Shown piece after piece: positions 34,289-41,556 of a DNA stretch of 64,000 nucleotides; the first letter of the stretch is position 1; each line of letters begins with the position of its first letter. Position numbers and translations under genes: made by a program. The notes beneath the pieces were generated by a model. That model worked only from the letters and a program-made list of their open reading frames with translations. It made no database searches and was not told the DNA's origin. Where the stretch lies: positions 2,720,501 to 2,784,500 of the forward strand of contig NZ_JADOVJ010000001.1 of assembly GCF_015752315.1 (NCBI RefSeq), given 5' to 3'. This DNA is from Nocardioides luteus. GTDB taxonomy: Bacteria > Actinomycetota > Actinomycetes > Propionibacteriales > Nocardioidaceae.

Positions 34289-34900
34289 GTGTGGCGACGG
34301 TACGTTGGTCGGGTGGTCGATCCGCCTTGGGACCTACTGCTGACCGTGGCCTTCGTGCTCACCGGCACCTCGGGAATCTGGACCCTCGTGGTCTGTCCCG
34401 GGACCGGTGGGCAGGCCGTTCTGCACGTCAACCACACGGTGATGAGCGCCGCGATGATCCTGATGATCTGGGTGATCCTCTGGGACGTGGCCGTCTGGGC
34501 TCAGGTCGCGCTGTTCGCGATCCTGACGGTGGCCCTGCTGCCCGCCTTGCGCCGCACAAGCGGGCGGGCGCGGCGTACGGACGTCGTCGGTCATCTCGCG
34601 CTCAACGCGGCGATGATCTGGATGCTCGCCGCGATGCCGCTGCTCATGGCGGACACGCATGCAGCCGGGAGCCACACCGCAGGTCATGCTGGCCACAGCG
34701 GCGCCGCCGCGGCCCTCCCGACGGCCGCGGCGCCGGGCTGGGCGATCGTGGTCAACTCGCTGTTCATCACCGCATGCGCGGCCGGGGTGATCTGGTGGCT
34801 GCTGCGCGCGGCTGCCGTACGCGAGCACCGTCTCCCTGCCCTCGGTCACGGACTCATGGCCACCGGGATGGGCACGATGCTCCTCCTGATGCCCGCGTGA
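34289..34900 (+). CDS. DUF5134 family membrane protein, His/Met rich
   Basis: 203 residues with about five to six membrane segments. A HVNHTVMSAAMILMIW segment and a His-rich loop (MADTHAAGSHTAGHAGHSG, about residues 121-139) are notable and suggest metal contact, possibly copper, by composition only. It converges on the sulfur/HMA-domain operon that begins 10 nt beyond its stop. GTG 34289 is the longest start; GTG 34313 is an alternative. Function unknown. Confidence 0.75.
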   Translation: MWRRYVGRVVDPPWDLLLTVAFVLTGTSGIWTLVVCPGTGGQAVLHVNHTVMSAAMILMIWVILWDVAVWAQVALFAILTVALLPALRRTSGRARRTDVVGHLALNAAMIWMLAAMPLLMADTHAAGSHTAGHAGHSGAAAALPTAAAPGWAIVVNSLFITACAAGVIWWLLRAAAVREHRLPALGHGLMATGMGTMLLLMPA

Positions 34901-34910
34901 GCCCGGAACC

Positions 34911-36188
34911 TCACACTCCGGCGAGCGGCCGCCCGCTGTCGCGCCAGGCGAGCACGCCGCCCTCGAGGTTGTAGGCCCGGCACCCCGTCGCGGCCGCCCG
35001 GGCCGCGAACCGCGCCGACCGGTCCCCCGTCGGGCACACGAACACCACCCGGGACGCCTCCGAGAACGGCATCCCCGCCTCCATGACCTGCTCGAGCAGG
35101 TCGTCGCGGAGGTTGATCGCGCCGGGGAGATGGCCCGCCTGGAACGCCAGGGCGGTGCGTACGTCCACGACGACCACGTGCTCGCCGGCCGCCATCCAGG
35201 CCTCCATCTCCTCCGCCGCGACAGAGGGCGCGGCATCGGAGGTAGTCGAGGCGGCTGCCCCGAAGAGGTCGGGGCGGCGGTGGCGGTAGTAGGAGAGGTA
35301 CGGCTCCATCCGGTCGCACGCGATCACGACCGCCGTGACCGGTCCCCCGGGCCCGGACAGGAGTCGTTCCCGTGCCGCGGCGTAGGCCGCACCCGTGGTG
35401 GGACCGGCGAGCACCCCGTGCCGGGTGGCGAGCTCCAGGCTCGCCGAGATCGCGTCGGCGGAGTCGACGGCGGTGATCGCGTCGTAGAAGTCGGGTTCGA
35501 AGAGTCCGACCTCCCACATCTCCGCGGCCGAGCGGATGCCGGGGATGAAGTCGCCCTCGGCGGCCACGACGCCGACGACGGCGGTCTCCGGGTTGCGCTC
35601 GCGCAGGTACGTCGCCGCCCCTCGGGTGGATCCGGTGGTGCCGAGGCCGCCCACGAGCAGGTCGACCTGACCGGCGTCGCGGTGGATCTCGCGGCCGGTC
35701 TCCTCGTAGTGGGCGCGCAGGTTGTCCTCGTTGGTGTACTGCGAGGTGTGGTGGTAGCGGCCGGGCTCGCCCTCCATGAGGTCGCCGATCACGCTGAAGA
35801 CGTCGTTGGGGGCGGTCGGGTCCGGACACTCCGAGAGGCCCGGCATCTCGGTCACCTCGGCGCCGAGCAGCGACAGCATCTCGCGGACCTCGCGCACCCG
35901 GACCCGGTTGGTGAAGGCACGGAACCCGACCCCGTGCATCGAGGCGATGATCTGGAGCGCCTTCGCGGTGTTGCCGCTCGAGGCTTCCACGACGACCTGT
36001 TCGTTCGCGACGATCCCGTCGATGTGGTCGCGCAGCAGTCCCCAGGCGACCCGGTCCTTCACGGAGCCGAACGGGTTGGCCGACTCCAGCTTCAGGAAGA
36101 TCTCGGCCTCGGGCACGCCGTGGGCGGCCGGATCGAGCCGCAGCAGCGGGGTGTCGCCGATCATGTCGAGCACGCTGTCGTATCGCAT
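34911..36188 (-). CDS. Cysteine-synthase-like PLP enzyme fused to a rhodanese domain
   Basis: 425 residues. Residues 1-310 are a fold-type II PLP enzyme of the O-acetylserine sulfhydrylase/cystathionine beta-synthase family with PLP lysine K44 (NPFGSVKDR), the VVEASSGNTAKALQII loop and the GGLGTTGSTRGAA phosphate loop. Residues about 330-425 are a rhodanese with active-site C385 in VFVCPTGDRSARF. The fusion suggests that sulfur carried as a persulfide on C385 is used in beta-replacement on an aminoacrylate, but it might equally make another beta-substituted amino acid as SbnA does. Last gene of the five-gene operon, 2 nt behind the decarboxylase. Confidence 0.85.
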   Translation of the reverse strand: MRYDSVLDMIGDTPLLRLDPAAHGVPEAEIFLKLESANPFGSVKDRVAWGLLRDHIDGIVANEQVVVEASSGNTAKALQIIASMHGVGFRAFTNRVRVREVREMLSLLGAEVTEMPGLSECPDPTAPNDVFSVIGDLMEGEPGRYHHTSQYTNEDNLRAHYEETGREIHRDAGQVDLLVGGLGTTGSTRGAATYLRERNPETAVVGVVAAEGDFIPGIRSAAEMWEVGLFEPDFYDAITAVDSADAISASLELATRHGVLAGPTTGAAYAAARERLLSGPGGPVTAVVIACDRMEPYLSYYRHRRPDLFGAAASTTSDAAPSVAAEEMEAWMAAGEHVVVVDVRTALAFQAGHLPGAINLRDDLLEQVMEAGMPFSEASRVVFVCPTGDRSARFAARAAATGCRAYNLEGGVLAWRDSGRPLAGV

Positions 36189-36190
36189 GG

Positions 36191-37564
36191 TCAGCTCCTG
36201 TGGTGATCGTCGGGCGCGTCGGCGAACGTGTCGGCGGTGAAGGTGAACCGGTCCCCGTCCAGGACCGCGGCGACCTTGGGCGGCGGCGCATGCCCGGCGG
36301 CGGCCGACGCCGACAGGTCCATCTGATAGGCGGCGGTGTTCACGAACGCGAGTACGTCGCCGCTGCGCGGCTCGGCGTCGAGGAAGACCTTCCGCCGGCT
36401 GATCAGGTCCGACTCCAGACAGAGCCGTCCGGCCAGGAACACTCCCCCGTCCGGCGGATCGCCATGCCCGTCGACGAGCACCGGGTCGAGCAGGACCTCC
36501 TGGTCGGCAGGGGTGACCTGGTTGCGGGAGAGGTCGAGCACGACCAGCTCGCGACCGGCCGCGCGTTTCCGGTAGAGCACTTCGGCCAGGGTGATCCCGG
36601 CGTGGTCGACGAGGGCCTTGCCCGGTTCGATCCACAGCGTGAGCATGCACTCGCGCAGAACCTCGGCGACCGGTCGCCGTTCGATCTCGGCGGCCAGGAA
36701 CCGGTCGAGCACCTCGGTCATCGGGCGGTGGTTGCCGTACTTGTGCGCGGCCGGCGCCACGACGTCGTGACCCGGCCACACCAGCTCCCCCGGCCCCGCG
36801 GCAAGCGCCTGCGCGTAGCGTTGGAAAGGCTCGGGATCCTCGACGAACCGCTGGCGGAAGCCGCCGCCGATGTCGACCACCGACGGCCGCAGACCCTTGC
36901 GGTACGCAGCGGACACCACCGCCATCGACTCGGTCAGCGCGTCCACGCGGGCGGCCGGATCGGCGGTGTCGAGGTGGAACGCCACACCGCGCAGCTCGAG
37001 CCCGGGCGCGCGGCGTACGGTCTCGAGGGCGGCGTCGGCGTCGGCGAGGTCGATGCCGAACCGAGACGGCGGCACCAGCGGCGAGGCGAAGCCGGAGAGC
37101 CGCAGCAGGACCGGGACGGTGCTGCCCGCGGGCGCCGCGGCGGCGAGTCGGTCGAGCTCCCACAGATCGTCGGCGTTCGTGGTGACCCCGAGCGACGCGA
37201 TCCGCTGGATGAACGCCGGCGACTTCGGACCCGTGGCCTCGATCCAGTCCGGCGCGAACCCCGCCGCGAGGGCCCGGTCGAGCTCGGCCGAGGAAGCCAC
37301 GTCCACCCCGAGTCCGGCTGCGGCTGCCTCGGCGACCAGCGCGGTCGAGGCGTTCACCTTGTGGGCGTAGAAGACGTCGTGCGGAACCGCGTGTCGCCGG
37401 AGCACGGCCTTCAGCGAGGCCGCGTTCTCGGCCATGACCTGCGGGAAGACCACGTGCAGCGGCGAGCCGAACCGTTCGATCGCCTCGGCCACCGCGGCAC
37501 CGTCGGCGAGGAACCGGTCGGCGATCGGGTGCCGCGCGGCCGGGAGCGGGTAGCGAGCCGTCAC
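36191..37564 (-). CDS. PLP-dependent decarboxylase, alanine-racemase fold (LysA/ornithine decarboxylase type)
   Basis: 457 residues of fold-type III. PLP lysine K69 is in DVFYAHKVNAS, with the HLDTADPAARVDAL and VVDIGGGFRQRF blocks and the C-terminal CLESDLISRR motif that corresponds to the CESGD of diaminopimelate decarboxylases. The HKYGNH region and flanking residues differ from standard LysA, so the substrate is probably not diaminopimelate. In this operon it could decarboxylate the beta-substituted amino acid made by the adjacent synthase, much as SbnH acts after SbnA in siderophore assembly; this is inference. GTG start overlaps the upstream stop (GTGA). Confidence 0.85.
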   Translation of the reverse strand: MTARYPLPAARHPIADRFLADGAAVAEAIERFGSPLHVVFPQVMAENAASLKAVLRRHAVPHDVFYAHKVNASTALVAEAAAAGLGVDVASSAELDRALAAGFAPDWIEATGPKSPAFIQRIASLGVTTNADDLWELDRLAAAAPAGSTVPVLLRLSGFASPLVPPSRFGIDLADADAALETVRRAPGLELRGVAFHLDTADPAARVDALTESMAVVSAAYRKGLRPSVVDIGGGFRQRFVEDPEPFQRYAQALAAGPGELVWPGHDVVAPAAHKYGNHRPMTEVLDRFLAAEIERRPVAEVLRECMLTLWIEPGKALVDHAGITLAEVLYRKRAAGRELVVLDLSRNQVTPADQEVLLDPVLVDGHGDPPDGGVFLAGRLCLESDLISRRKVFLDAEPRSGDVLAFVNTAAYQMDLSASAAAGHAPPPKVAAVLDGDRFTFTADTFADAPDDHHRS

Positions 37565-38778
37565 CCGTCGGCCACCGTGTAGCCGCAGTCGCGCAGGTCG
37601 GCGAAGACCCGGTCGCGCTGGTCGGCGTCGGTGAACCTGGCCCGCACCCGCTTTCCGTGTAGGTCCACCTCGATCAGCTCGGCCGCCTGGGCGTCGAAGA
37701 CGGCGGTGATCGTCACCCGGCAGTGCCGGCAGGTCATGTCCGGGACCCCGAACTCCTGTTCTCCCGCGGCGAACTCGGCATCCCCGTCGGCGGGCCCGGG
37801 GGCCTCGGCGATCCGCACCGACTCGACCGCGGACCGGAAGGCGCCGGTGAGCGCCTCGGCGACCGCGGCGAGCGGCTGGACCCGTGCGCCGTCGACCTGG
37901 TGGGCTCGCTGTCCGAGGCAGACGGGGCGCTCCTCGGCCGGCAGCAGGGCGTACTGTCGCGAGATCTGGTCGAGCTCGACGTGGTAGCGCTGGATGGCGG
38001 CGCGCAGGCCCAGGCCCTCCTCGCGGGCGCGGGCCATCACCTCATGGGCGTCCGCGATGGTGCGGCGCTTCATCTCGGCGAGCAGGGTGACGGTGTCCTG
38101 GGTGTAGCGAAGGCGGCCGCCGGAGCGCTCCAGCCGCGCCGGGATCATGCCGCGGCGGTAGGTGGAGGCCTGCAGCTCCCAGAACCAGGTCGAGGCCACC
38201 GTGCCGTACAGGCCCGAGGCATGCATCTCCTCGGCGAACTCGACGAGGTCGTCGATGCCGACCTGGCCGGCGAGCATGCCGTGCTGGACGAGGGCGCGAC
38301 CCGCGGCCTCGGCGCCGACGCGGAAGATCTCGCCGGGTTCCTGGTCGGTGGTGGTGTCGGCGAGGACGTCGAGCTCGTCGTCGCCGAGGGCGTCCGAGCG
38401 CGCGGTCACCGCGTCTGCGGCGGCGATCGCGTCACCCACGGCGATCACGGCTTCCCGGGTCGCGATCGGCAGGAGCGGTCCCAACGGTCCCGGGCCGATG
38501 TGGCCGCTGTTGGCGATCCCGCGGGAGTCGCGCCAGGTGACCCGGTGGGTGGCGGTGACGACCTGGTCGGGGCGGCACGGGCGCATGAAGGACTCCAGGT
38601 AGCGACGCTGTCCCGTCGTGAGCGGCCCGCCGGGTTCGGGGCGGAGCTCCTCGACGCGGTACGCCACCGACACTGCCGGGGTCGCCGGCGCGGCCCCGGT
38701 CAGGAAGTCGGCACCGGCGACCTCGGCCAGGATGCGGGCGGCGGCGGCGCGGTCGTATCGGATGCCTTCGGTCTGCAC
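37561..38778 (-). CDS. Unrecognised protein with C-terminal HMA (CxxC) domain
   Basis: 405 residues. I do not recognise residues 1-330: soluble, mostly helical, with a VTWRDSRGIANSGHIGPGPLG segment early on, a WFWELQASTYRRGMIPARLE stretch, and a helical region around 235-320 ending YALLPAEERPVCLGQ. Residues about 343-405 are a heavy-metal-associated domain: DMTCRHCRVTI (C350, C353), then VDLHGKRVRARF and LRDCGYTV. The domain normally binds Cu(I) or transfers it. The gene is locked between a cysteine desulfurase-like gene (3 nt away) and the decarboxylase (4-nt overlap), so it is an integral part of the pathway. Confidence 0.8.
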   Translation of the reverse strand: MQTEGIRYDRAAAARILAEVAGADFLTGAAPATPAVSVAYRVEELRPEPGGPLTTGQRRYLESFMRPCRPDQVVTATHRVTWRDSRGIANSGHIGPGPLGPLLPIATREAVIAVGDAIAAADAVTARSDALGDDELDVLADTTTDQEPGEIFRVGAEAAGRALVQHGMLAGQVGIDDLVEFAEEMHASGLYGTVASTWFWELQASTYRRGMIPARLERSGGRLRYTQDTVTLLAEMKRRTIADAHEVMARAREEGLGLRAAIQRYHVELDQISRQYALLPAEERPVCLGQRAHQVDGARVQPLAAVAEALTGAFRSAVESVRIAEAPGPADGDAEFAAGEQEFGVPDMTCRHCRVTITAVFDAQAAELIEVDLHGKRVRARFTDADQRDRVFADLRDCGYTVADG

Positions 38779-38781
38779 GTG

Positions 38782-39960
38782 TCAGGTCCTTTCGGCAGCG
38801 GCCGAGAGGCCCTGCAGGAGTCGGTCGACGTCGTTCTCGTCGTTGTAGAGGTGGAAGCTCGCCCGGACGGCGTCGTCCCGCGGGCCGTCGAGACAGTGGT
38901 CGCCGGCGCGTACGTAGACCCGGCGGCGTTCGAGGGCGAAGGCGACGTCGGCGCCGGCCTGGCCGTCGAGGGCGAAGGCGACGATGCCGCTGTGCGGCTG
39001 GCGCGGGTCGACCGGCGGTCCGAGGAGCGTGACCCCGCCGATCCGGGTGGCGCCGTCCGCGAACCGGGAGGCGAGGGCGGCCAGGTGGCCGCCGACGCGG
39101 TCGACCCCGATGCCGTCGAGGAACGCCGTGGCACCCGCCAGCGCCGCCGCTCCGGCGCCGTCGAGGCTGCCCTCCTCGGCGGCGTCGGTGAGCGGTGAGA
39201 CATGGCGTGCCGGCCCGCTCCGCCCGGCCGCGCGGTCGACGGCGATCCGGTGATGCTGACCGCGGCGTACGTAGACCGTGCCGGTGCCGGGAGGACCGAA
39301 CATCTTGTGGCCCGAGACGACGGCGACCTCGGCACGGGACTCGGCCAGGCGCAGGGGCAACCGTCCGGCGCTCTGGGAGCAGTCGAGGCAGACCGTCGCG
39401 GCCGGCGGGATCGCCAGCGCGTCGAGGTCGGTCCGGGTGCCGTGGAGGTTGTGGACGTCGGTGGCGACGACCACCGCGGTGCGGTCGCCCGCGGCCCGGG
39501 CGAAGTCGTCGGCGTCGATACGTCCCAGGCGATCGCGCCGGTAGGGCACCGCCCGCACTCCCTGGGGCCGCATCCGTTCCGCCAGCCGGAGCCAGGGACG
39601 CACCGTCGACAGGTGGTCCCCCGGGCAGTAGAGGATGTCGCCACCCTTCTCGAGCGCGGCGGGGCCCCACCGGTCGGCCAGGAACGCCATCGCACCGGTG
39701 GCGCCGCGGGTGAACGCCACCTCGTCGGGGAAGGCGGCGCCGAGGAACGCGGCGACGGCGGCCCGGGCCTCCTCGACCCGGCGCAGCGCGTCGCGTGCCC
39801 ACGGATGTCCACCCCTGCCGGGGTTGGCGGCGGGACCACGCAGCTCGGCGGTGAGCTGGGCGATGACCGGTTCCGGGCACGGCGTGCCGGAGGCGGCGTC
39901 GAGGTAGACGAGATCGGGTTCAGCGGTGAGGGCCGGGAAGTGCCGACGGGAGCCGAGCAC
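38782..39960 (-). CDS. Class V aminotransferase, cysteine desulfurase-like (SufS/Csd type)
   Basis: 392 residues. PLP lysine K219 lies in VVSGHKMFGPPGTG, preceded by VCLDCSQSAGRLPL, and a cysteine at the position of the SufS-type nucleophile is present (C356 in YVRAGDHCLDGP). This supports persulfide formation from cysteine, although selenocysteine lyase or another class V reaction is possible. The N-terminus (VYLDAASGTPCPEPV) is typical. No suf or isc genes are nearby; its partners are HMA-domain proteins, a PLP decarboxylase and a rhodanese-fused synthase, arguing for a dedicated sulfur pathway rather than Fe-S assembly. Confidence 0.85.
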   Translation of the reverse strand: MLGSRRHFPALTAEPDLVYLDAASGTPCPEPVIAQLTAELRGPAANPGRGGHPWARDALRRVEEARAAVAAFLGAAFPDEVAFTRGATGAMAFLADRWGPAALEKGGDILYCPGDHLSTVRPWLRLAERMRPQGVRAVPYRRDRLGRIDADDFARAAGDRTAVVVATDVHNLHGTRTDLDALAIPPAATVCLDCSQSAGRLPLRLAESRAEVAVVSGHKMFGPPGTGTVYVRRGQHHRIAVDRAAGRSGPARHVSPLTDAAEEGSLDGAGAAALAGATAFLDGIGVDRVGGHLAALASRFADGATRIGGVTLLGPPVDPRQPHSGIVAFALDGQAGADVAFALERRRVYVRAGDHCLDGPRDDAVRASFHLYNDENDVDRLLQGLSAAAERT

Positions 39961-39978
39961 GGACGACTCCGCTGCCGG

Positions 39979-40203
39979 TCAGGTTTCGCGGGCGATCGAG
40001 AAGCCGGCCTTGGCGAGCGTTGATCTGAGGACCCTGGGCTCGACCGGTTCGTCGGCGGTGACGCGGGCGCTCGAGACGGCTCCCGGGTTCAGATCGACCT
40101 CGACGCCGTGGACGCCGTCCAGGTCTCCGAGAGCGTTGGTCACGCTCTCGACACAGCGGTTGCAGGTCATTCCATCGATGCGCACTTCGAACTGAACCGA
40201 CAT
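39979..40203 (-). CDS. HMA-domain (CopZ-like) small protein
   Basis: 74 residues forming a single heavy-metal-associated domain with metal-binding C14 and C17 in DGMTCNRCVESV and the usual VEVDLNPG strand. Copper chaperones of this size hand Cu(I) to P-type ATPases, but none is encoded here. It is the first gene of the five-gene operon, 18 nt before the desulfurase-like gene. A second HMA domain is at the C-terminus of the protein at 37561-38778, so the two may exchange a metal or a persulfide. Confidence 0.88.
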   Translation of the reverse strand: MSVQFEVRIDGMTCNRCVESVTNALGDLDGVHGVEVDLNPGAVSSARVTADEPVEPRVLRSTLAKAGFSIARET

Positions 40204-40230
40204 GAGGCTGCCCTTCAGTAGGACTTCGCT

Positions 40231-40256
40231 GGTTCGCTCGAAAATATCACCGAACC
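40231..40256 (-). promoter_or_regulatory. Inverted repeat and AT-rich -10 region before the HMA operon
   Basis: ggttcg (40231-40236) and cgaacc (40251-40256) flank an AT-rich core whose minus-strand reading contains GATATT/TATTTT, a plausible -10 about 40 nt before the start at 40203. This is the only AT-rich patch in the 252-bp gap between the threonine aldolase and HMA genes; the rest of the gap holds a small gtcccc-tc-ggggac hairpin at 40290-40303 and nothing else I can name. A repressor site is plausible, the regulator unknown. Confidence 0.45.
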
Positions 40257-40455
40257 GATCGCCTCACAGGTGGTTTGGTCCGTCCTCCGGTCCCCTCGGG
40301 GACGACACACGCACGGATCGCCGGAGACGGCTCTCAGCCGGCGAGCTGGGCGAGTCCGCGACTGACCCTGCCCGGCGAGTTCCCACCTCCTCCGAATCTC
40401 GCCGCCCGCTCAGGCCGCCGTCATCACCCCTTCCGGGGGAGCTCCGGCCGTACGC

Positions 40456-41556
40456 TCAGGCGACCAGGGCAGCGAGATGGCCGGCGACGCTCTCCGGATC
40501 CAGCTCGAGCGCGCCCTGGCCGACCGTCACCTCGGTCACCACCCGGCCCGGCTCGTCGCTCGCGGTCCACGGTCTGCTGAACGCGAGCGAGTGCTCCTCG
40601 AGGGCGGCGAGGAGACGGGTGTTGATGTCGTCGGGGTCGCCTGCTGCGTACAGAAGGAAGGTGTTGGTGTGCGGCACCGCCGGCTGGGCGGTGATCTCGG
40701 CAGGAAGTGCGGCGGCCAGGGCCCTCGCCCAGGTCACGCACTCGCCGATGTGCGGGAGCCGGTCGCGGAGGCCGACCAGTGCGGCGACCGCCTCGGCGGT
40801 GGAGCGGTAGAGCGTCCCGCCCATCCGGCGCCGCCACAGTCTGGCTTGGGCGACGAAGTCGTCGTCGCCGAGCAGCGCCGCTCCGGCGAGGCCACCGAGG
40901 CCCTTGTAGAAGCTGGTGTAGACGGTGTCGGCGAGGCCGGCGATCTCTGCCAGCGGCTTGCCGAACCACTCCTGCGACTCCCAGATCCGGGCGCCGTCGA
41001 TGTGGAAGGCGATCCCTCGCTCATGGCACCCCTGCGCCAGCTCGGCGAGCTCGTCGAAGGTGGGCAGCAGACAGCCGGCGTCACGCAGCGGGAGCTCGAC
41101 CAGGCACGCCGCGAGCGGTCCCGGGATCGCGTCGAGATGCGCCCTCGTCGGCGTCTCGCGGCCCGTGGTGAGGTGCTCGATCCGCAGGTCCTGGAGGATC
41201 CTCGGCCCGTCGTCCTCGTGGACGAGCAGGTGGGAGAGGTCCGGCATCGCGACCCGCCGGTTGCCCGCCGTGTCGGCGTGGATCCGCAGCGCCACCTGCT
41301 GCGCCATCACCCCGGACGGGAAGTACGCAGCCGGCTTCCCAAGCAACTCGGAGACCTCAGTCTCCAGGCGCGCCACCGGCCCCCGCTCGGCGTAGACGTC
41401 CCACTCCTCGATCCCGAGCTCTCGGCACGCCTCCGCCAGCCCGTCGAACACCTCGGCCGGACTCGGGTACGCCGGGAAAACGCTCTGCCGGCACGCGATG
41501 ATCGCCGCCCGGAGTCGCTCCGGCAGCGACTTCTCCTCCTCGTTCACGCGGCTCAC
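40456..41556 (-). CDS. Low-specificity threonine aldolase / beta-eliminating lyase family
   Basis: 366-residue fold-type I PLP enzyme that would cleave threonine or allo-threonine to glycine and acetaldehyde. PLP lysine K218 is in YTSFYKGLGGLAGA, preceded by the HIDGARIWES block with the PLP-binding aspartate. Length matches the family. It is separated by 252 nt from the sulfur/HMA operon downstream and has the same orientation, but the operon appears to have its own promoter, so I treat it as independent. Confidence 0.87.
   Translation of the reverse strand: MSRVNEEEKSLPERLRAAIIACRQSVFPAYPSPAEVFDGLAEACRELGIEEWDVYAERGPVARLETEVSELLGKPAAYFPSGVMAQQVALRIHADTAGNRRVAMPDLSHLLVHEDDGPRILQDLRIEHLTTGRETPTRAHLDAIPGPLAACLVELPLRDAGCLLPTFDELAELAQGCHERGIAFHIDGARIWESQEWFGKPLAEIAGLADTVYTSFYKGLGGLAGAALLGDDDFVAQARLWRRRMGGTLYRSTAEAVAALVGLRDRLPHIGECVTWARALAAALPAEITAQPAVPHTNTFLLYAAGDPDDINTRLLAALEEHSLAFSRPWTASDEPGRVVTEVTVGQGALELDPESVAGHLAALVA

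Follow-up and report, generated by a model that had tools for sequence, protein, structure and literature searches.

The closest described relatives of the operon analysed here, five genes at 34911..40203 on the minus strand of a 64,000-nucleotide stretch of the Nocardioides luteus genome (the window), belong to metallophore synthesis and to dedicated sulfur delivery. In the SbnA/SbnB/SbnH pathway to staphyloferrin B, a PALP, one of the enzymes dependent on pyridoxal 5'-phosphate (PLP), acts first, and a decarboxylase then acts on the beta-substituted amino acid. The window operon appears to share this PALP and decarboxylase chemistry, but its PALP scores far below the SbnA cut-off and falls in another clade. 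In the Y4yA/Y4xP operons of Sinorhizobium fredii NGR234 and Agrobacterium vitis, a Y4yA-family decarboxylase likewise stands beside a cysteine-synthase-family PALP; however, that PALP lacks a rhodanese domain and belongs to another clade, and an opine dehydrogenase, IucA/IucC and an MFS transporter take the place of the desulfurase and the orphan protein found here. An excerpt of PMC3973906 terms the role of Y4yA/Y4xP in NGR234 enigmatic. The metallopterin-dependent ergothioneine synthase, in the part of PMC9516567 that describes it, shares a dedicated cysteine desulfurase that feeds a small molecule by a proposed persulfide relay, but it uses a metallopterin enzyme within one fused protein and occurs in anaerobes.

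PDB entries 8h4q and 8h4h match the PALP-rhodanese fusion of the window over query residues 29-361 and carry rhodanese in their name, but they are known solely as 'Rhodanese domain-containing protein', and our literature search gave no paper naming the protein. They may serve as a template for the fusion. The search, mostly of open-access papers, found no described system with this gene set, as an earlier note on this DNA had stated. PALP and decarboxylase modules for metal ligands are known; the sulfur relay proposed here would be an addition to them.

We found that a four-gene cassette, encoding a class V PLP enzyme of cysteine desulfurase type, an orphan protein with a C-terminal HMA domain, a fold-III PLP decarboxylase and the PALP-rhodanese, is linked across actinobacterial genomes and keeps its catalytic residues. 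The three enzymes also occur, in Streptomyces-type genomes, in a sister type without the orphan (hereafter the Zur type), around which Zur-box-like sites are enriched. We propose, with a probability of about 0.4 for the full scheme, that the cassette may be a persulfide-fed module of metallophore type which makes a small N,S metal ligand, the orphan handling copper. We are far more certain that the genes belong together as a unit than of the full scheme, and our certainty that this unit is metal-linked lies between the two.

We infer each chemical step, the product and the metal of this scheme. The core trio would be a persulfide-fed version of the PALP and Y4yA-type decarboxylase module of siderophore-like operons. 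The class V enzyme would lift sulfur from cysteine onto its C356, from where it would pass to the rhodanese C385, perhaps via C121, and on to the PALP active site. The PALP would add this sulfur to an amino-acid-derived aminoacrylate, and the decarboxylase would take off the alpha-carboxylate to leave an N-C-C-S (aminothiol-type) ligand. The orphan with its HMA domain, together with the 74-residue HMA protein where present, would modify the product or load the metal, most likely Cu(I). With the sulfur kept on proteins, there would be no free sulfide to precipitate copper and zinc.

Gene order and distribution of the cassette

The five minus-strand genes are separated by gaps of 18, 3, -4 and 2 nt and carry the following features.

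39979..40203, minus strand: first gene, lineage-specific, for a 74-residue HMA metallochaperone-like protein (CxxC, MTCNRC; Pfam HMA, 48.3 bits)
38782..39960, minus strand: class V PLP enzyme resembling the cysteine desulfurase SufS (K219, C356; Aminotran_5, 202 bits)
38893..38895, minus strand: codon of C356, a desulfurase-type persulfide cysteine that aligns with E. coli SufS C364
37561..38778, minus strand: 405-residue orphan, an N-terminal domain of no known family plus a C-terminal HMA domain (Pfam and NCBIfam gave HMA only)
37579..37752, minus strand: HMA domain of the orphan, residues 343-400 (MTCRHC), a fold match to copper chaperones
36191..37564, minus strand: fold-III PLP decarboxylase, kin of the Y4yA family (K69 as PLP lysine)
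34911..36188, minus strand: CysM-like PALP fused to rhodanese (PALP 170 bits, Rhodanese 61.9 bits)
35826..35828, minus strand: codon of C121 of the PALP, a conserved cysteine within an insert (by alignment)
34938..35216, minus strand: rhodanese domain, residues 325-417 (Pfam)
35034..35036, minus strand: codon of rhodanese Cys385, with Cys in 75/75 rows

Our re-reading of the window agreed with the earlier note on the five genes, their coordinates, strand and gaps, and Pfam and NCBIfam domain scans concurred. The NCBIfam cut-off was reached by none of the five operon proteins (0/5). The genome carrying the window is 5.82 Mb in a single contig.

Named genome contigs were scanned with four orphan sequences, which gave 130 relatives, and 80 loci were kept: 72 from Nocardia, 5 from Nocardioides, and one each from Kineosporia babensis, a Streptosporangiaceae metagenome-assembled genome (MAG) and a Mycobacteriaceae MAG. 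The closest copies among the named genomes were those of Nocardioides turkmenicus, N. albus, N. luteus, Nocardioides sp. YR527 and one Nocardioides MAG. The class V, orphan, decarboxylase and PALP-rhodanese genes stood in one order on one strand in 74/80 loci, a count that admits partial matches, such as PALPs truncated where a contig stops and, in L025, 77 residues of the class V enzyme. Four of the six other loci (L040, L056, L071 and L084) stop at a contig edge, L043 is without the class V gene and L098 holds the orphan alone. The junctions were tight: -4 nt in 46/75 loci at the first joint and in 67/76 at the second, and -1 nt in 57/74 or -4 nt in 7/74 at the third, with lengths that are approximate as start codons were chosen by rule. 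Conservation was read from matches covering at least 85% of the query, namely 75 class V, 80 orphan, 76 decarboxylase and 74 PALP rows plus the window.

The gene for the 74-residue HMA protein adjoined the cassette, preceding the class V gene, in 6/80 loci (the 5 Nocardioides and L024), a count in which a very divergent short gene may have been overlooked. Given the 74/80 linkage and the confinement of the HMA gene to these loci, the unit comprises a cassette of four genes, to which an HMA gene is added in some genomes. The earlier note had proposed one dedicated unit of five genes and had named rare co-occurrence of these genes as a finding that would refute it. The 74/80 linked loci gave no such refutation and, with the orphan present at full length in 20/20 sampled genomes of a Nocardia-like genus (g37, taken as Nocardia from this distribution), support a dedicated unit; four genes of the set are linked, and the 74-residue HMA gene is missing beside most copies.

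The orphan is rare elsewhere. It was found at full length in 4/394 genomes of the class, the window genome and three of g37 (8 matched in all), and in none of 19 other sampled genomes of the same genus as the window. Among 396 genomes of the phylum there were 49 matches, 3 at full length and the other 46 at the HMA part. A widespread orphan family was rejected on these class and phylum counts. Viral and plasmid copies were searched for and none were found.

The orphan protein and the HMA domains

The orphan is a protein family outside Pfam and NCBIfam. No known family other than HMA was recognised when Pfam, NCBIfam, PDB and viral fold libraries were searched, apart from weak rows that were not used. 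Its AF2 model has a pLDDT (predicted local distance difference test) of 89.5, and fold searches with the whole protein as query matched essentially the HMA part, the VIA rows covering mainly residues 337-405. Among 67 diverse sequences, 69 positions were invariant, many of them polar or aromatic, including R58, Y60, C68, H78, R79, W82, D84, T143, T144, D145, R153, E157, R161, H166, W200, E201, R208, R209, K237, H266, D270, Y276 and C287. The many invariant polar and aromatic positions suggest that the orphan may be an enzyme. C350, H352 and C353 of its HMA domain were also invariant in the 67 rows. Both HMA domains are of CopZ/Atx1 type, the 74-residue protein above the Pfam cut-off and the orphan C-terminus by fold, with a CxxC-type site, and in our scheme they would handle a metal, most likely Cu(I).

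Catalytic residues and relatives of the three enzymes

The class V enzyme kept the tested catalytic residues of SufS-type desulfurases (SufS H123, D200, Q203, K226, R359, C364 and R379) in 16/16 orphan-type and 14/14 Zur-type rows, in line with the desulfurase-type cysteine that the earlier note had read in it. It differs from them in scoring 190.4 bits against the NCBIfam SufS model, below the cut-off of 475.1, and in forming a clade separate from the SufS of its own genome and of E. coli. No suf genes were found among the five operon genes or the neighbours read. A cargo desulfurase of a Family 2A encapsulin was also considered and rejected: the score against NF041166 was 162.9 versus a cut-off of 800 bits, with a match beginning at profile position 231, and the enzyme lacks the long N-terminal extension expected of such cargo.

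The best PDB match of the PALP was CysM (131 bits), and among NCBIfam models it scored 172 bits with CysM and 153 bits with SbnA (TIGR03945, cut-off 349.95). The PALP kept CysM K41, N71, Q140 and R210, whereas in the 12 SbnA/Y4yA-type PALPs Ala or Gly replaces R210. In the PALP tree, 31 cassette rows formed their own clade (100*) apart from 12 PALPs of SbnA/Y4yA operons. Because the PALP is nearer to CysM than to SbnA, a sulfur nucleophile is favoured, which agrees with the sulfur-moving role suggested by the earlier note. C121 was conserved in at least 97% of 75 rows, and in 15/15 and 16/16 rows of a second alignment; it lies in an insert not present in CysK, CysM or the PALPs of SbnA/Y4yA operons, and is perhaps a relay residue.

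These PALP data also bear on an SbnA/SbnH-like amine route, in which the nitrogen of an amino acid would be joined to the aminoacrylate to give an ethylenediamine-type ligand, with a separate thio group supplied by the sulfur enzymes. The PALP does score with the SbnA model, and the decarboxylase is kin of Y4yA enzymes that accompany SbnA-like PALPs and siderophore synthetases; but that score is far under the cut-off, the PALP stands apart from SbnA/Y4yA PALPs and keeps CysM R210, and no SbnB-like ornithine-cyclodeaminase gene was found in the operon or in the neighbouring genes that were scanned. We therefore regard this route as improbable, though worth keeping in view.

The rhodanese loop reads C-P-x-G-[E/D]-x, with Cys in 75/75 rows and Arg at the last position in 6/75, namely the window and five Nocardioides kin. 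Arg in this loop is tied to thiosulfate use in the title of PMC8533005. A taurine-like route, in which the rhodanese would draw sulfite from thiosulfate, the PALP would make cysteate and the decarboxylase would convert it to taurine, could draw on this Arg in the window's own loop, on the adjoining decarboxylase and on a weak match of the PALP to the cysteate synthase model (114 of 600 bits). However, the Arg is missing in 69/75 loops, and the desulfurase, the orphan and the HMA domain are left unexplained, so that this route is very unlikely.

The window decarboxylase is 33.6% identical to NGR234 Y4yA, and the kinship with Y4yA is supported by homology and tree, in keeping with the decarboxylase assignment of the earlier note. 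It keeps the PLP lysine K69, H197 and C382, and has C-L-E-x-D where LysA has C-E-S-x-D, with Leu 383 in 16/16 and 15/15 rows and in 11/14 Y4yA rows. LysA E343 acts on the distal amine of diaminopimelate. Because Leu replaces this residue, the substrate of the window enzyme likely lacks diaminopimelate's distal amine. Diaminopimelate decarboxylase itself was rejected, as the lysA model gave 134 versus a cut-off of 297.9 bits and Leu stands at the E343 position.

Plasmid relatives of the decarboxylase are often annotated as Y4yA family, and we looked at five regions that hold such genes. In NGR234 and A. vitis, Y4yA occurs with cysteine-synthase family, opine-dehydrogenase family and IucA/IucC genes and an MFS transporter. 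In Mycobacterium intracellulare, one arrangement has a PALP, an ornithine cyclodeaminase, Y4yA and MATE, with CsoR and a multicopper oxidase in the vicinity, and another has Y4yA and MATE together with an ArsR/SmtB regulator and a PALP; in Sulfitobacter, a Y4yA-type decarboxylase lies with SbnA. These operons look like siderophore-type metallophore operons. Zur control of ethylenediamine-disuccinate synthesis is described for Amycolatopsis in an excerpt of PMC6103462. As separate observations, the y4yB-y4xM genes of NGR234 (L176, pNGR234a 87333-94378), inside a type III secretion region, resemble a metallophore operon; the same Y4yA gene set adjoins a TonB siderophore receptor on an A. vitis plasmid (L179); and two plasmids of M. 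intracellulare subsp. chimaera (L177, L180) hold a possible plasmid-borne metallophore set.

The Zur-type sister trio

The 394 class genomes were searched with PALP-rhodanese, and matches at 1e-70 or better were obtained in 19. The orphan type accounts for four of these. A differently arranged decarboxylase-PALP pair is matched in the 15 remaining genomes and, in addition, at a further place of one g37 genome. We analysed 14 of these 16 places (G252 and G293 were left out) and two Streptomyces plasmids, and in all 16/16 Zur-type loci the decarboxylase, PALP-rhodanese and class V genes were adjacent in that order on one strand. The hosts are f20 and f18 genomes, the two plasmids and the Nocardia-like G031, which carries the trio as a second copy. 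The trio resembles the window cassette in its three adjacent enzymes on one strand, but it differs in gene order and is without the orphan or HMA. In G252, G293 and L162, the PALP match ends near residue 275, the rhodanese part being missing, diverged or out of frame.

Three gene trees united the two types (SH-aLRT, the Shimodaira-Hasegawa-like approximate likelihood ratio test: PALP 100, decarboxylase 88, class V 100) and then split them into two groups, apart from the CysK/CysM-, LysA- and SufS-like proteins of E. coli and of the own genome. Each tree came from a quick search and had long branches flagged, and of the 80 fetched loci 12 were included (11 in the PALP tree). The L152 decarboxylase (internal stop), L145, L146 and the class V enzymes of L154 and L162, which were seen by tblastn and failed the length and stop filter, were left out. 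Because of the long branches, we trust the separation of the PALP from the SbnA/Y4yA PALPs less than the grouping of both types together. For class V, PALP and decarboxylase, the best own-genome paralogues scored 114, 120 and 46 bits, respectively, compared with 158-197, 254-366 and 203-269 bits for the Zur-type proteins by tblastn. By these scores, the two types appear closer to each other than to own paralogues, clearly for PALP and decarboxylase; for class V the gap is modest (158-197 vs 114 bits).

Since each enzyme belongs to a common superfamily, the cassette might be duplicated ordinary sulfur metabolism, with a spare desulfurase and a spare cysteine synthase that serve Fe-S clusters or provide cysteine. 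However, the own-genome paralogues are more distant than the two types are from each other (modestly so for class V), and the 74/80 linkage and agreeing trees also speak against it; we give this explanation very little weight. A housekeeping role was rejected on the NCBIfam cut-offs and trees.

We scanned the loci with the actinobacterial Zur-box motif given in part of PMC5472717. In the Zur-type loci (318 kb), box-like sites at zero, one, two and three mismatches numbered 1, 1, 4 and 4, respectively, a total of 10 sites with three mismatches or fewer versus 0.1 expected (controls: 10 shuffles per Zur-type locus and 1 per orphan-type locus). At four mismatches or fewer, a site was present in 12/16 loci, and just behind the class V gene in 9/16. 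One site lies about 100 bp before the decarboxylase of L153, where ABC-transporter genes (by reading) precede the trio. The exact match stands before an MFS gene in L152 (G031:C98:150001-170000), the second, Zur-type trio of a Nocardia-like genome, whose decarboxylase gene is interrupted by a stop. L160 and L173 have zinc-starvation genes nearby, namely alternative ribosomal proteins and a CobW-like gene (by reading), and a methyltransferase-like gene, again by reading, adjoins the trio in 8/14 loci.

The 80 orphan-type loci held 0 sites at two mismatches or fewer, 8 at three (one shuffle, 1) and 47 at four (shuffle, 35), some of the three- and four-mismatch sites being copies between sister species. 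Within the 2 kb upstream of class V in 75 orphan-type loci, there were 0 sites at two mismatches or fewer and 1 at three. The three- and four-mismatch sites weigh against a clean split of the two types.

Metal-related and neighbouring genes

The Kineosporia copy is flanked on one side by CopD-CtaG, a BlaI-type repressor, a peptidase and an HMA P-type ATPase, and on the other by a FecCD-type importer. Together with the Zur-type loci, these copper genes provide the metal links that the earlier note had suspected.

The same surroundings bear on another explanation, that the product stays inside the cell as a low-molecular-weight thiol or persulfide buffer, or as a copper-sulfur cofactor passed by the orphan-HMA protein to a cuproenzyme. 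The HMA domains are of cytosolic metallochaperone types, the window cassette holds no exporter, presence of the orphan in every sampled g37 genome fits a core function better than a metallophore cluster of variable occurrence, and CtaG, of a cuproenzyme assembly factor family, stands beside the Kineosporia copy. However, the MFS gene behind the exact Zur box of L152 and the ABC genes of L153 suggest export and import there, and no cuproenzyme gene was linked in the loci read. We consider an intracellular product unlikely, if a serious contender.

Three further features border the window operon or its promoter.

34289..34900, plus strand: gene, convergent with the operon, for a DUF5134 membrane protein that looks rich in Met and His by eye (Pfam 65.8 bits)
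40204..40252, minus strand: leader/promoter block CGGTGATATTTT ... CCTACTGAAGGGCAG, common to the window and 5 other Nocardioides, read by eye
40456-41556: threonine-aldolase-like gene upstream of the operon (GntG model 103.6 bits, below the cut-off of 230), present in 3/5 other Nocardioides loci

The DUF5134 gene is the sole one found in its genome. DUF5134 also lies beside the cassette in all 5 other Nocardioides loci and 1.6 kb away in the Streptosporangiaceae MAG, and it occurs in 119/394 class genomes; the 19 other same-genus genomes have neither DUF5134 nor the orphan. Among 58 flanking pieces (of 89 from 30 DUF5134 loci), 13 held peptidase M48, 3 CtaG, 2 a copper chaperone family (PpoB2) and 1 a P-type ATPase. 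DUF5134 was rejected as a copper marker; its neighbours are frequently M48-type peptidases and now and then copper genes, a suggestive link only. No operator was found upstream of the operon, the 40204..40252 block giving no Zur-box match. A GGTTCG...CGAACC palindrome there was rejected because other Nocardioides do not keep it.

Discussion

Several observations weigh against the persulfide-fed metallophore scheme. In the orphan type, L043 (Nocardia sp. CDC159) is missing the class V gene, and in 21 kb of L098 (Nocardia harenae) the orphan was found but not any of the three enzymes. The full-length query gave no usable structural match for the orphan N-terminal domain, and its reaction is a guess. 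The CysM and SbnA scores of the PALP are not far apart, and its tree position carries long-branch warnings. In the Zur type, the 10 strong sites are confined to 5/16 loci and stand directly before the decarboxylase only in L153 and L173, and 4/16 loci have no Zur-like site even at 4 mismatches; the window has no Zur box within 5 mismatches at 39900-41100. Copper genes adjoin the cassette in the Kineosporia lineage only, no metal gene was recognised by reading near the cassette in the Nocardia loci read, and the DUF5134-copper link is weak. The window operon holds no transporter, NRPS (nonribosomal peptide synthetase) or ligase, and no dedicated exporter or importer. The main weakness is that simple cysteine synthesis by the PALP would be undone by the desulfurase in a futile cycle. 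Since plain cysteine-to-cysteine turnover is futile, either the acceptor is other than a plain serine ester, or the product is S-sulfurated or further modified, or the PALP in truth uses an amine as nucleophile, unless the scheme as such is mistaken.

A broader possibility, which we hold only tentatively and consider somewhat doubtful, is that persulfide-relay N,S ligands form a class with two forms: a zinc-starvation form of Streptomyces type, and a copper form in Nocardia and Nocardioides with a new enzyme family that carries its own copper-chaperone-type domain.

Besides the 72 Nocardia loci that were fetched, other actinobacteria carry the cassette, and no published product or function was found for it. 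If the persulfide-fed scheme is true, sulfur-relay chemistry would join metallophore-type pathways, and one module could be compared in two forms, zinc-linked and copper-type.

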